This document shows, piece by piece, positions 42,986-60,172 of a stretch of DNA of 64,000 nt (the first letter of the stretch is position 1; each line of letters begins with the position of its first letter). A program made the translations under genes and the position numbers. The notes below the pieces were generated by a model. The model saw only the letters and a list, made by a program, of their open reading frames with translations, was not told the origin of the DNA and searched no databases. This DNA is from Pyrinomonadaceae bacterium (GTDB lineage Bacteria > Acidobacteriota > Blastocatellia > Pyrinomonadales > Pyrinomonadaceae): positions 1-64,000 of the forward strand of contig JAVEDP010000036.1 in NCBI GenBank assembly GCA_030841085.1, read 5' to 3'.

Positions 42986-43046
42986 CTCATCTAACCGCAA
43001 TCAAGCAGCAAAGGAATTATTCAAGAGCCATAGGCTCCCCGAGACT

Positions 43047-43282
43047 GGCACTGGTTCAGTTTCAATTCAGCCGACGCTGCAGGTCCGAAGGACCGAGAGT
43101 TAGTAGCCCCGTCCGTGAGGGCGGGGACGTCATCTTCTGAGATTGCCGAGGCCCGAAGGGCCGGCACCAATATGTCGCACCTTCGGCGCTCCGGCGACTA
43201 ATCAAGCTTCTAACTCCGCCCTCACGGACGGGGCTATTAACTACCGGTCCTTCGGACCTAAAATCCAAATTGAACCAGTACG
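43047..43282. mobile_element. MITE-like element, copy 1
   Basis: The ~236-bp element has ends GGCACTGGTTCA and TGAACCAGTACG, which match the 12-bp terminal repeats of the copy at 59783-60020 with one mismatch at each end. The interior (GGTCCGAAGGACC, GCCCCGTCCGTGAGGGCGGG and their inverses) is the reverse complement of that copy. It is flanked by a short direct CGAGAC repeat. It sits between the two permease genes. Confidence 0.75.
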
Positions 43283-43327
43283 CGAGACGCTCTCACTTGT
43301 GCCATTAACATTCTTCATCTCTGCTTC

Positions 43328-54625: not shown

Positions 54626-56698
54626 ATGCGGACAAGATGGCTCATCGTAATCACAGCAACTCTGTTGCTTGGCGTGTTAATGCTGCTTCCCCGAATAAGT
54701 GAGGCCGGTAGATCCGAATGGCTTAGTGGCGAACCCGCTGGGCCGGCGAACCCGGAAGCGAATGTCACTCAGGGCCCGGATCAAAGGGGCGACATCTCAG
54801 TCGTTGCCTCTTACCACAACGACACTTCGAAACCTCTGCGCGATATCAAGCCGCACCCACTGGTTCCCAAAGCCGTCCATGAGAACGAGAATCCTAAGAT
54901 TCCGAACAAACACAAAGACGCGCCCGATCCGGTTGTTCAGAACAGCTTCAGCGCCGTGACCAGTCTCATGACTGTGAGCATGCCCAGTCCGCTGCTGAAC
55001 TTTAACGGCATTGGATTCCCCGGCGTGGCCTGCAACTGCGCGCCTCCCGATACAGATGGCGAAGTGGGCGCGACACAATACGTGCAAATGGTTAACGAAG
55101 GCTTACAGGTTTTTGACAAGACCAGCGGCGCTTCCGTGTTGGGTCCGGTTGGTATTACTACCATCTGGAGTGGCTTTAACGGTCCCTGCGAAACCGCCGG
55201 CGATGGCGATCCGGTAGTGCTTTATGATCAACTTGCCAATCGTTGGGTGATCACGCAGTTTGCAGGTTCGGGAGTGCCAACTGACGAGTGCATCGCGGTA
55301 TCTACCACCAGCGATGCCACCGGCAGTTACAACCGCTACGGCTTTCATCTCGGATCAAACTTTTTTGATTACCCGCACCTCGGTGTCTGGCCCGATGCCT
55401 ATTACATGAGCATGAACGTATTCAACTCGACCGGCACGCTGTTCCTGGGCCCGCAACCGTTCGCGTTCGATCGCGCCAAGATGCTTGCCGGTCAACCCGC
55501 AACTTTCGTTACCACCGGCATTACTGGTGGACCGAACGAGGAAGTTTATCTGCCGGCTGATCTCGACGGGTCAATCTCGCCTCCGGCCGGTGCACCGGCA
55601 TCGTTCGTTGAATTTCCTGGCGGCGGCAGCTTCCGAGTTTTTCACTTCCACGTTGACTTCGCTACTCCGCTTAACTCGACGTTTACTTTGTTCGCCAGTC
55701 CTGCCTCGGCGGCTTTCACCGTGCGAAGCGGAGGCGTACCGCAACTGGGAACAACGTCAACACTGGATCCGATTGGCGATCGACTGATGTTCCGCGTGGC
55801 CACACGGTTCTTCGCCGATGGGCACGAATCGGCTGTCGGCAACTTCACCGTCAATTCCAATAGCGTTGCGTCCCCGCGTTGGTTTGAATTACGCAATGTC
55901 ACATCGGGCCCGGTGACGGTGTTTCAGCAGGGCACTTATCAACCGGACACAACTAATCGCTGGATGGGCAGTGCGGCAATGGACCAGCAGGGAAATATCG
56001 CCCTCGGCTACAGTGCTTCCAGCAGTTCGATCAATCCGCAGATTCGTTACGCCGGCCGACTGTTCGGGGATCCGGTAAATACTTTGCCGCAAGCTGAGGT
56101 GACTTTGTTTGCCGGCACGGGCAGCCAAACCGGAACGAACGGACGCTGGGGCGATTACAGCGATATGACCATTGATCCGGTGGACGACTGTACTTTCTGG
56201 TACACGCAGGAGTATTACGCAACGACAACGAGTTTCGCCTGGCGCACCCGCGTCGGTGCTTTCAAGTTCCCTGGTTGCGGTGGATCGCCGACACCAACGC
56301 CTACTCCGACGCCAACGCCGACGGCAACACCAACGCCGACACCCACAGCGACGCCGACTCCAACGCCTACTCCGACGCCAACGCCTACACCGACGCCAAC
56401 GCCTACACCGACGCCAAACGCTCCGAGTAATTTGACGGCAGCGCCGGCTTCGGCGAGTCAAATAAACCTGTCGTGGACAGATAATTCAGGAAACGAGGAT
56501 GGTTTCCTGATAGAGCGTTGCACTGGAAACAATTGCATCAACTTTGCGCAGATTGCATCGGTAGGGGCAAACGTTACCAGCTACTCGAACACAGGACTGG
56601 CGGGCAACACGTTCTACAATTATCGTGTGCGGGCGTTTAATGCCGCAGGAAACTCTGGTTACTCAAATAGTGCCAAGGCTAAGACTGCTAACCATTAG
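54626..56698 (+). CDS. Secreted protein, paralogue 2, with Pro-Thr linker and fibronectin III domain
   Basis: The 690-residue protein has a signal or anchor (LIVITATLLLGVLMLLP), the shared body (DTDGEVGATQYVQMVNEGL, HLGSNFFDYPHLGVWPDAYY), a PTPT linker (~555-598) and a fibronectin type III domain (~600-688: ASQINLSWTDNSGNEDGF, YNYRVRAFNAAGNSGYS). GGAAAGG precedes the ATG. It is likely exported, with the FnIII module mediating binding. The repeat-coded linker (ACGCCNACN units) is prone to length change. No enzyme motif is visible. Confidence 0.88.
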   Translation: MRTRWLIVITATLLLGVLMLLPRISEAGRSEWLSGEPAGPANPEANVTQGPDQRGDISVVASYHNDTSKPLRDIKPHPLVPKAVHENENPKIPNKHKDAPDPVVQNSFSAVTSLMTVSMPSPLLNFNGIGFPGVACNCAPPDTDGEVGATQYVQMVNEGLQVFDKTSGASVLGPVGITTIWSGFNGPCETAGDGDPVVLYDQLANRWVITQFAGSGVPTDECIAVSTTSDATGSYNRYGFHLGSNFFDYPHLGVWPDAYYMSMNVFNSTGTLFLGPQPFAFDRAKMLAGQPATFVTTGITGGPNEEVYLPADLDGSISPPAGAPASFVEFPGGGSFRVFHFHVDFATPLNSTFTLFASPASAAFTVRSGGVPQLGTTSTLDPIGDRLMFRVATRFFADGHESAVGNFTVNSNSVASPRWFELRNVTSGPVTVFQQGTYQPDTTNRWMGSAAMDQQGNIALGYSASSSSINPQIRYAGRLFGDPVNTLPQAEVTLFAGTGSQTGTNGRWGDYSDMTIDPVDDCTFWYTQEYYATTTSFAWRTRVGAFKFPGCGGSPTPTPTPTPTPTATPTPTPTATPTPTPTPTPTPTPTPTPTPTPNAPSNLTAAPASASQINLSWTDNSGNEDGFLIERCTGNNCINFAQIASVGANVTSYSNTGLAGNTFYNYRVRAFNAAGNSGYSNSAKAKTANH

Positions 56699-56810: not shown

Positions 56811-56968
56811 GAGCGGCTTTGCCGCCTTCCGTGCGGAAAGGCTCTGCCTTTCCGCTAAGCTAATGAAAAAAAGGCTATGCCTGTCCAGTCGGTCGAGGCG
56901 TAGCCTCTCACGTCAAAAGGCCAGCCGGAAAGGCAAAGCCTTTCCGCACGGGACGCGGCGAAGCCGCA
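56811..56968. repeat. GCGGAAAGG palindromic element, intact copy
   Basis: The ~158-bp unit begins GCGGCTTTGCCGCC, then TTCCGTGCGGAAAGGC, a middle part with GGCTATGCCTG and GAGGCGTAGCCTC hairpins, and ends with GCCTTTCCGCAC and GCGGCGAAGCCGC. The same unit lies at 59771-60172, interrupted by the MITE. The stretch from 56969 to 57370 has no recognised feature. Confidence 0.75.
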
Positions 56969-57370: not shown

Positions 57371-59587
57371 ATGAACGTGCGGACAAGATCGATCATTTTC
57401 CTTGCAGCAGTTTTACTGCTCATCACAACCGTAGTACTTCTTCCTCGAATTATTGAGGCCAGACGTCTCAAAGATTTGAGTGCCAATAAAAGTTTGGCAG
57501 TCACACCTGTGCTGGCTAACAGCGTCAATCAAGATCAAAAAACAACCGTCATCGTGGGTGCCTCGGTTCGCAACGACACCTCGGTGGCGCTGCGCGATAT
57601 GAAGCAAGCAAAAGTGGGCAAAAAGGTCGAGCACGAAGCTAACGAAAACCCGAAAGTGCCCACCAACCATCAAGACTCTCCGGACCCGGTGGTCCAGGGA
57701 CCTAACTCGCTGCTGGCATTTGCAGGACTCAATGTACCCAGCCCCATTCTTAACTTTGACGGCATCGTCTATCCCGGCGTCAGTTGCAACTGTGCGCCAC
57801 CCGACACCAACGGCGAAGTGGGCGCCACGCAATACGTCCAAATGGTCAACGAAGGCTATCAGGTTTTTAACAAGACGACGGGCGCATCGTTGCTGGGACC
57901 TTCCGGCATTACTACGCTCTGGAGTGGCTTTGGCGGCGTTTGCCAAACCAATGGCAGTGGCGACCCCGTCGTGATCTACGACCAAATCGCCAACCGCTGG
58001 GTCATTACTCAGTTCGCCGGCGTAAGCGTTCCGACAGATGAGTGCATTGCAGTTTCGACGACCAGCGATGCCACGGGCAGCTATTTCCGCTACGACTTTC
58101 ACCTCGGTTCCAACTTCTTCGACTATCCGCACTTGAGCGTGTGGCCCGATGCTTATTACATGAGCATGAACGTATTCAACACGGCCGGCACCGCGTTCCT
58201 CGGCCCGCAACCGTTTGCTTTCGATCGCGCGAAGATGCTTGCCGGTCTTCCGGCCACCTTCGTCAGCACCGGAGTCACCGGTGGGGGCAGCGAGAATGTT
58301 TACCTTCCCTCTGATCTTGACGGCTCAATTTTGCCACCGGCTGGCGCTCCCGCATCGTTCGTCGAATTTCCCGGCGGCGGCGCTTACAGGGTCTTTCATT
58401 TCCACGTCGACTTCACCACGCCGGCGAACTCGACGTTTACACTCTTCGGCAGTCCGGCCGCGGCGGCCTTCACAGAGCTATGCGCCACCACTCGTAGTTG
58501 CGTGCCGCAGCTCAGCACGACCAACAAGCTGGACGGCATTGGCGACCGGTTAATGTTCCGCCTGGCGTATCGCAATTTCGGCGACCACGAAGCAATAGTG
58601 GGAAACTTCAGCGTGAGTTCGGGCGGCGTGGCCGGGATACGTTGGTTCGAACTACGCAACGTGACCTCCGGACCAGTGACCGTCTTCCAGCAGAGCACGT
58701 ATCAGCCGGACGCGACCTGGCGCTGGATGGGCAGCGCGGCGATGGACCAACAGGGAAATCTTGCCGTTGGTTTCAGCGCTTCCAGTGCATCGATTCACCC
58801 GGACATTCGTTACGCTGGCCGGTTGTTTACCGATCCGCTTAACGTGCTGACGCAAGGTGAAACGACGCTCTTCGCAGGCGCTGGCAGTCAGACCGGCACC
58901 CTTAATCGCTGGGGCGACTATAGCGACCTGACCGTGGACCCGGTTGATGACTGTACTTTCTGGTACACGCAGGAATACATTCCCGCGAACGGCAGCAGCA
59001 ATTGGCGCACGCGGATCGGGGCATTCAAATTCCCGGGTTGCGGTGGTTCGCCTACTCCGACTCCGACGCCGACGCCAACGCCAACACCGACACCAACGCC
59101 GACACCAACGCCGCCGCCGCCTTCGCAGTTGCTGTTGAATCCGGGTTTCGAATCAGGCAACGTCAACTGGGTAGCAACTGCCGGGGTAATTACTAATTCA
59201 ACCGGACGCACGCCGCGCACTGGTTCATGGTACGCGTGGCTTGATGGTTACGGCACAACGCACACCGATTCGCTGTACCAGCAGATCACGATTCCCGCGG
59301 GCGCCACTTCGGCGACGCTCAACTTCTATTTGAAGATTGACACCGCCGAGACAACTACTACCACGCCCTTTGACACTTTAAAGGTGCAGATTCGCAACTC
59401 GAGCAATACGGTACTGGCAACGCTGGCAACGTATTCAAATCTGAACAAGGGCACTGTATATGTGCTGAAGTCGTTTGACGTTACTTCCTTCAAGGGGCAG
59501 ACGATTCGGGTCTACTTCCTCGGAGTCGAAGATAGTTCGCTGCAGACATCGTTCCTAATAGATGACACTGCACTGAATGTGCAATAA
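57371..59587 (+). CDS. Secreted protein, paralogue 3, with Pro-Thr linker and jelly-roll-like C-terminal module
   Basis: The 738-residue protein is close to paralogue 2 through the shared body (DTNGEVGATQYVQMVNEGY, FHLGSNFFDYPHLSVWPDAY), then a PTPT linker (~558-580). The C-terminal ~150 residues (LLLNPGFESGNVNWVAT, TLNFYLKIDTAETT, GQTIRVYFLGVEDSS) resemble a carbohydrate-binding-like beta-sandwich and differ from the FnIII end of paralogue 2. It is probably exported after a signal/anchor (FLAAVLLLITTVVLLP). Ligand and function are unknown. Confidence 0.88.
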   Translation: MNVRTRSIIFLAAVLLLITTVVLLPRIIEARRLKDLSANKSLAVTPVLANSVNQDQKTTVIVGASVRNDTSVALRDMKQAKVGKKVEHEANENPKVPTNHQDSPDPVVQGPNSLLAFAGLNVPSPILNFDGIVYPGVSCNCAPPDTNGEVGATQYVQMVNEGYQVFNKTTGASLLGPSGITTLWSGFGGVCQTNGSGDPVVIYDQIANRWVITQFAGVSVPTDECIAVSTTSDATGSYFRYDFHLGSNFFDYPHLSVWPDAYYMSMNVFNTAGTAFLGPQPFAFDRAKMLAGLPATFVSTGVTGGGSENVYLPSDLDGSILPPAGAPASFVEFPGGGAYRVFHFHVDFTTPANSTFTLFGSPAAAAFTELCATTRSCVPQLSTTNKLDGIGDRLMFRLAYRNFGDHEAIVGNFSVSSGGVAGIRWFELRNVTSGPVTVFQQSTYQPDATWRWMGSAAMDQQGNLAVGFSASSASIHPDIRYAGRLFTDPLNVLTQGETTLFAGAGSQTGTLNRWGDYSDLTVDPVDDCTFWYTQEYIPANGSSNWRTRIGAFKFPGCGGSPTPTPTPTPTPTPTPTPTPTPPPPSQLLLNPGFESGNVNWVATAGVITNSTGRTPRTGSWYAWLDGYGTTHTDSLYQQITIPAGATSATLNFYLKIDTAETTTTTPFDTLKVQIRNSSNTVLATLATYSNLNKGTVYVLKSFDVTSFKGQTIRVYFLGVEDSSLQTSFLIDDTALNVQ

Positions 59588-59770: not shown

Positions 59771-60172
59771 AGCGGCTTTGCCGGTACTGGTTCAATTTGG
59801 GTTCCCAGGTCCGAAGGACCGCTAGTTAATAGCCCCGTCCGTGAGGGCGGGGGTTAGAAGCTAATTAGTTGCCGGAGCGCCGAAGGTGCGACAGATTGGT
59901 GCCGGCCCTGCGGGCCTCGGCGATCTCAGAAGATAGCGTCCCCCGCCCTTACGGACGGGGCTATTAACTAGCGGTCCTTCGGACCTGAAGCACCGGCCGG
60001 ATTGAAACTGAACCAGTACCGCTTTGCCGCCTTCCGTGCGGAAAGGCTTTGCCTTTACGTTAAGCTAATGAAAAAAAAGGCTATGCCTGCGCAGCCGGTC
60101 GAGGCGTAGCCTCTCGCTGTAAAAAAGGGCAGCCGGAAAGGCAGAGCCTTTCCGCACGGAAGGCGGCGAAGC
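59771..60172. repeat. GCGGAAAGG palindromic element, interrupted by the MITE
   Basis: The unit of 56811-56968 is present here but split: GCGGCTTTGCC (ending 59782) is followed by the MITE and resumes with GCTTTGCCGCC at 60021. The rest keeps the GGCTATGCCTG, GAGGCGTAGCCTC and GCCTTTCCGCAC parts. Confidence 0.8.
59783..60020. mobile_element. MITE with 12-bp terminal inverted repeats and 8-bp target duplication
   Basis: The 238-bp element starts with GGTACTGGTTCA and ends with its perfect reverse complement TGAACCAGTACC. It is flanked by direct repeats GCTTTGCC (59775-59782 and 60021-60028), a duplication that is single in the intact host repeat at 56811. The interior is a long imperfect palindrome with no reading frame for a transposase. 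A copy in opposite orientation is at 43047-43282. Confidence 0.88.

Follow-up and report, generated by a model that had tools for sequence, protein, structure and literature searches.

What moved a 238-bp element into another repeat at this locus, and what does the element carry? A sequence-only reading of the window (the whole 64,000-nucleotide stretch of Pyrinomonadaceae DNA analysed here) had described a MITE of this length with perfect 12-bp terminal repeats, inserted in another repeat and flanked by an 8-bp target duplication, and each of these points was borne out. The ends of copy 1, GGTACTGGTTCA and TGAACCAGTACC, are inverted and perfect over 12 bp, and a perfect GCTTTGCC stands on both sides of the element (Table 1). 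When one mismatch was allowed, the 12-mer end occurred four times in the window, compared with 0.09 occurrences expected from shuffles. The RNA fold of copy 1 reaches −165.8 kcal/mol (z −16.5), and none of 200 shuffles was as low. No ORF of at least 90 aa overlaps copy 1 or copy 2, as is expected at such a length.

The intact host repeat had also been recognized, although it starts at 56813 and not, as had been given, 2 bp earlier at 56811. When the flanks of copy 1 were joined without the element and one copy of the duplication, they aligned across the junction with this site, at which the intact host motif GCGGCTTTGCCGCC lies. Because it follows a gene that is 71% identical (402/568 aa) to the gene before the MITE, the 56813 site can be regarded as a paralogous empty site, so that the comparison is one within a single genome, between paralogous places. 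The two neighbouring genes lie at window positions 54626–56698 and 57371–59587, and a similar hairpin repeat follows each of them. The second copy had been described as inverted with a partial duplication. It is indeed inverted, with one mismatch at each end, and its flanks CCGAGACT and GCGAGACG agree in register at 6 of 8 positions, assuming that the right-hand terminal base was lost.

Table 1. Features of the two MITE copies in the window, and tRNAs upstream of the transposase in related IS1-like elements (positions in the window unless a locus is named).
Feature	Position	Strand	Remark or basis
MITE copy 1	59783..60020	+	238 bp
Left copy of 8-bp target duplication GCTTTGCC	59775..59782	.	sequence
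Right copy of target duplication GCTTTGCC	60021..60028	.	sequence
Left terminal repeat GGTACTGGTTCA	59783..59794	+	16 bp with ATTT
Right terminal repeat TGAACCAGTACC	60009..60020	-	
REP / Acido-Lenti-1 unit, REP-sense	59807..59852	+	RF01687 reads - strand
Second REP / Acido-Lenti-1 unit, inverted	59941..59986	-	RF01687 reads + strand
Inner hairpin module GAGCGCCGAAGGTGCGACAG	59875..59894	+	also beside RAYT gene of contig C15 (by eye)
Inner hairpin module GGCCCTGCGGGCC	59904..59916	+	sequence
Intact host inverted repeat, 155 bp, 42-nt arms	56813..56967	.	paralogous empty site for copy 1
MITE copy 2, inverted	43047..43281/2	-	one mismatch per end
Left flank of copy 2, CCGAGACT	43039..43046	.	6/8 vs 43282-43289
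Right flank of copy 2, GCGAGACG	43282..43289	.	
REP / Acido-Lenti-1 unit of copy 2	43081..43126	+	
REP / Acido-Lenti-1 unit of copy 2	43214..43259	-	
tRNA upstream of transposase, L055	L055:1376-1462	transposase strand	ARAGORN
tRNA upstream of transposase, L120	L120:3003-3089	transposase strand	ARAGORN
tRNA upstream of transposase, L111	L111:4197-4289	transposase strand	ARAGORN
tRNA upstream of transposase, L143	L143:4697-4786	transposase strand	ARAGORN
tRNA upstream of transposase, L150	L150:4846-4920	transposase strand	ARAGORN
tRNA upstream of transposase, L157	L157:4776-4870	transposase strand	ARAGORN
tRNA upstream of transposase, L192	L192:4751-4848	transposase strand	ARAGORN

Does the 8-bp duplication recur elsewhere in the family? 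When the MITE was used as a DNA query against the genome it comes from (43 contigs, 4.69 Mb), 67 matches were returned, many of which were the two strands of one palindromic place. Thirty loci were fetched, six of them being other-strand duplicates, and 24 places were examined for ends, together with a few weaker ones taken later. Both ends scored at least 11/16 against GGTACTGGTTCARTTT in 18 of the 24 copies, some of which may carry chance ends because 21 of 480 equally sized control windows reach this score too (and 2 of 480 reach 12); the remaining six copies have no recognizable pair of ends. At the 8-bp spacing, the left and right flanks of the 18 copies agree at 85 of 144 positions (59%), compared with 11–39% at duplication lengths of 1–7 and 9–13. 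When the right flanks were shuffled among the copies, a mean of 40.6 positions agreed and none of 20,000 permutations reached 85. The duplication matches at 7–8 of 8 positions in seven of the 18 copies, and copy 2 scored 1/8 in this test because of its lost terminal base. These results indicate that 8-bp duplications do recur in other copies of the MITE.

The claim of recent movement fared less well. Only the intact ends and duplication of copy 1 speak for it, and the family as a whole gives no impression of a recent burst, because the nearest copies are 91–93% identical and the median pair only 69%. A second case of nesting was seen at copy L005 (G000:C35:18120-18373), which lies within another inverted repeat, with AGCACAGACTTTAGTCGGTGCTT and its complement on either side. 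A search with the MITE DNA found no match on plasmids; among relatives, at least 8 of 97 genomes (own included; the best 8 candidates at most scored per genome) gave matches, mostly to the core.

Which transposase might act on these ends? We sought the exact 12-mer ends in 59 genomes, own included, and found them in a same-genus genome (G001:C298 523-2870, locus L055), inverted and 2,348 bp apart. L055 is flanked by a perfect 8-bp duplication (GTATCTCA), and its interior holds a 288-aa ORF that matches IS1/IS240-type DDE domains. The terminal repeats are thus shared by a transposon. The ORF scores 29.4 bits against PF13610 (cut-off 27), 24.0 bits against PF03400 for IS1 (cut-off 24.1) and 50.9 bits against the NCBIfam IS1 model (cut-off 100), and among its four best plasmid relatives (56–59% identity) three carry the annotation "IS1 family transposase" and the fourth that of a helix-turn-helix protein. 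Residues D66, D138 and E201 are invariant in 15 sequences and are presumably catalytic.

Relatives of the L055-type transposase, some of them mere fragments, are present in 22 of the 59 genomes (own included), and 9 of 18 further loci from these relatives could be delimited by GGT- or GGCA-type ends with a perfect 8-bp duplication. A scan of named genomes, from which the best 80 of at least 510 transposase relatives were kept, delimited 58 loci of 2,035–4,779 bp by inverted ends and an 8-bp duplication (exact in 57); the other 22 were left undelimited, some being short of flank at contig ends. The delimiting script itself imposed the GG start (G1, G2) and at most one mismatch in the duplication, and T6, G7 and T14 proved invariant in 116 of 116 ends of the 58 delimited relatives (consensus GGTAGTGGGTCAGTTT). 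The MITE ends satisfy G1, G2, T6, G7 and T14. By eye, among the outputs listed, a recurrent promoter-like palindrome, TTGACA...TGCTTGAGCGCTCAAGCATAATGGTCA, was also seen upstream of the IS1-like transposase in many of the loci L125–L203, from several phyla.

The IS1 family has GGnnnTG ends (ISfinder) and duplications of 8–9 bp. The present elements resemble it in their GGnnnTG ends, 8-bp duplication and a DDE transposase with IS1 similarity, but differ in that the L055 transposase scores below the curated IS1 cut-offs, and in that the 58 delimited parents, at 2.0–4.8 kb, have passenger space, whereas the MITE keeps the ends only. The closest known system to the L055-type parent is the large, single-ORF, ISMhu11-like branch of this family. 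Because of its ends, its 8-bp duplications and the same ends around an IS1-like transposase gene in a same-genus genome, we regard the element as an IS1-type MITE. The link between parent and MITE rests on the ends and the duplication length, since L055 and the MITE have in common (by eye) only the terminal 16–20 bp. In G001 itself, the MITE DNA found no match among the best 8 of 10 candidates. The own genome (98.9% complete, 43 contigs) yielded no intact IS1-like transposase in protein and profile searches and no pair of ends at transposon spacing (12-mer, one mismatch); because only two C-terminal transposase fragments (49 and 36 aa, contig C30, profile search) were found there, the MITEs of this assembly appear to be orphans.

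The larger elements also carry genes of their own. Strict ARAGORN runs gave 10 tRNA matches in 67 delimited elements (the 58 and the 9 from relatives, without L115, whose transposase is truncated), compared with none in the reversed sequences. Seven of the ten lie on the transposase strand, 80–214 bp upstream of the transposase, and Rfam confirms six of these, the exception being that of L157. Only the position is notable, because the flanks of the same loci also contain tRNAs, and tRNA cargo as a general rule was rejected on these grounds. Relaxed thresholds were dropped, the control numbers being similar (15 vs 9, then 170 vs 177). The upstream tRNAs of L055 and L120 are alike over the D-arm (GTGGCGGAACT.GCAGACGCGC), which has the look of a leucine tRNA, but their anticodons are GTA (Tyr) and GTC (Asp), respectively; the two tRNAs are possibly chimeric. 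The passengers of L109, L126, L131, L165, L176 and L196 resemble helix-turn-helix/ImmA-type proteins and HigB-type toxins. When one protein per kind was compared with Pfam, L196 gave HTH_3 over the cut-off and Peptidase_M78 just below it, and L109 gave a HigB-like match over the cut-off. The cargo of L120 includes a Clp-protease-like gene.

What, then, is the core of the MITE? The internal palindrome, which the sequence-only reading had noted and left unexplained, is an inverted pair of Acido-Lenti-1/REP units with two hairpins each. In each of the two window copies, the two arms match the Rfam family RF01687 (Acido-Lenti-1) above the gathering threshold, with scores of 41.5 and 41.2 bits vs 37 given for a pair of arms. 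From 39 distinct RF01687 matches, 30 units were aligned (own genome, G005, G011, G014, G017, G066, G067, G092 and one Bacteroidota plasmid), the nine left out being seven matches of more than 46 nt and two additional L211 units. The resulting 13-pair structure is that of Rfam, with the same 8-bp and 5-bp helices; 98.5% of its cells pair, and 10 of the 13 pairs show changes on both sides, compared with 2.9 on average in control shuffles and 0–3 in slid structures. G–T pairs occupy 14 cells on the REP-sense strand vs 2 on Rfam's strand; 12 of these 14 share a single position, however, and could stem from one event. The presence of RF01687, together with matches to ADOP-type permeases that stay below their cut-off, points to Acidobacteriota as the phylum of the window.

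The core also occurs without IS1-type ends: all 12 RAYT units and doublets tested outside the MITE family have end scores of at most 10/16, compared with 16 and 16 for copy 1. Could it nevertheless have been part of one IS1-like parent, from which the MITE arose by internal deletion? Internal deletion of a parent element is the usual origin of a MITE, and over about 20 bp the left end of the MITE is similar to the right end of L055 (GGTACTGGTTCACTTTGGGA). On the other hand, the interior of L055 holds ORFs and a tRNA, and RF01687 stayed below its gathering score in the eight element loci scanned (L055, L111, L114, L120, L143, L150, L157 and L192). We consider this origin unlikely.

Short forms bear on the order of assembly. 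One of them, 71 bp long and located on C31 of the own genome, has only a short AGGTCC-GGACCT-like hairpin and a duplication matching at 7/8 positions, and a 73-bp form in G005 likewise has a 7/8 duplication. We considered the 71-bp form as an ancestor into which the REP doublet was inserted later, but a deletion between two GGTCC copies accounts for this form equally well. A 30-bp form (G011:C6:24941-24970, L062) consists of two 12-bp ends with 6 bp between them; its 8-bp duplication, GAAAAGTT, is perfect, and a tRNA lies 56 bp away. Across 16 genus genomes, two exact-pattern searches with inner spans of 20–80 bp found only this G011 form, inexact ends such as those of the 71-bp form escaping them, and the pattern AGGTCCTTYGGACCT found the G005 form only.

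Are the core units associated with a transposase of another kind? The own genome has 15 Y1_Tnp matches, 12 of which were scanned with about 1.5 kb per side. RF01687 was found at four of these loci and not at the other eight. Three of the four have the gene between two oppositely oriented units, the arrangement also seen in the MITE; the pair at the remaining locus belongs to a MITE copy that adjoins the gene. The Y1 loci gave 11 RF01687 matches in all (E up to 0.1), four of them under the gathering threshold (32–36 bits vs 37). The genome-wide density of units of this type (39 at two or fewer mismatches in 4.69 Mb) would predict about 0.3 in the 38 kb scanned. One intact Y1 gene lies on contig C15 (161 aa, or 149 counted from its ATG; PF01797, 92 bits), and its 93%-identical counterpart in G011, a genome of the same genus, likewise stands between two units, of 48.5 and 36.2 bits.

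Further away, a 45%-identical Y1 gene in G017 had no RF01687 match over threshold in about 6.8 kb on one side only, the other side being cut off. The Persicobacter plasmid CP012861.1 (Bacteroidota; Y1 identity about 42%) has a sub-threshold RF01687 match (35.7 bits) to one side of its Y1 gene, and three-module hairpins of the same type were seen by eye on both sides. No RF01687 match was found at a Y1 relative on a Bernardetia plasmid (about 42% identity) or in the 1-kb flanks of six distant Y1 transposases (26–30% identity, chosen from 256 records). Databases name such a Y1 protein an IS200/IS605 transposase; we infer the label RAYT from the hairpins that flank the genes. Because Y1 genes are bracketed by this motif in the inverted arrangement that it also has in the MITE, the MITE can be read as a chimera in which IS1-type ends enclose a REP doublet. 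Furthermore, since its hairpins bracket a different kind of transposase gene, the Acido-Lenti-1 family is suggested to be really mobile DNA.

Rfam lists RF01687 as an sRNA gene. Could the core be foremost a functional small RNA, carried by a transposon by chance? In its published description, the motif was scored as a probable RNA without a cis-regulatory role (Weinberg 2010, PMC2864571), and the covariation is strong. However, DNA hairpins read by a Y1 transposase would give covariation too, the G–T pairs favour the strand opposite to Rfam's (with the reservation about their one position given above), inverted pairs of units bracket Y1 genes, and the copies are many and dispersed. This makes a primarily RNA function quite improbable. 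The passages on Acido-Lenti-1 in the literature sampled tie it to no transposase, and PMC2864571 does not contain the word "RAYT"; a 2026 paper states that little is known of Acido-Lenti-1 and proposes a part in gene regulation (PMC13298647). The units of the MITE resemble Acido-Lenti-1 in that both arms exceed the gathering score with the same two helices, but Rfam describes an sRNA of unknown function, whereas here the units appear as the paired ends of Y1 elements and as the cargo of a MITE, with G–T pairs that favour the other strand.

IS200-type or RAYT transposition is not known to produce a target duplication. That the Y1 (RAYT, single-strand) machinery moves the whole unit as a large REPIN, with the 12-bp repeats merely neighbouring, is highly improbable, for although the core is a REP doublet and the genome has its Y1_Tnp genes, three of them bracketed by the core motif, the 8-bp duplications adjoin the 12-bp ends and not the REP units, and none of the 12 tested RAYT units and doublets has the 12-bp ends. 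Because the duplications are at the outer ends, we do not file the whole element as a REPIN; only its core resembles one. REPINs and GTAG-type REPs with RAYT transposases have already been described, and the likeness extends to the inverted hairpin doublet, the tag TTARTAG before the hairpin and units bracketing a Y1_Tnp gene (PMC3116915, PMC3733652). The difference is that the doublet of the MITE is enclosed by 12–16 bp IS1-type ends and 8-bp duplications.

The ends and duplications tell how the MITE moved, and the core tells what it carries. The element is very probably a non-autonomous MITE that was moved in trans by an IS1-like DDE transposase, with the REP doublet as its passenger. In this course of events, a RAYT-type REP doublet would have come to lie between a minimal pair of IS1-type ends, either by being surrounded or by inserting there. 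The IS1-like transposase would then have spread the enclosed doublet, its staggered cuts giving rise to the 8-bp duplications, and the transposase would later have been lost or reduced to fragments in this genome, leaving the family to decay in place. The core would be a passenger throughout, and its very stable hairpins may act on transcription too. Among bacterial MITEs, MITEAba12 reportedly comes from Acinetobacter and is said to be tied to another IS. We know of no REP core in it. The likeness lies in its being a short, non-autonomous, IS-derived bacterial MITE (PMC6382973).

The MITE itself is ordinary, and the point of interest is the identity of its core. On balance, we favour the view that Acido-Lenti-1 is the REP end hairpin of RAYT/IS200-like elements, from Acidobacteriota to Bacteroidota, and not primarily an RNA gene, and that within this genus a doublet of this kind has been taken over by an unrelated IS1-like transposase, so that one small element would combine signals for the single-strand chemistry of Y1 and the double-strand chemistry of DDE enzymes. 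The ends of a DDE transposon around a REP doublet offer a route by which REPs could spread without a RAYT of their own. For an orphan Rfam family, this provides a testable mobile-DNA hypothesis, under which Acido-Lenti-1 predictions may in many cases indicate REP elements rather than regulatory RNAs.
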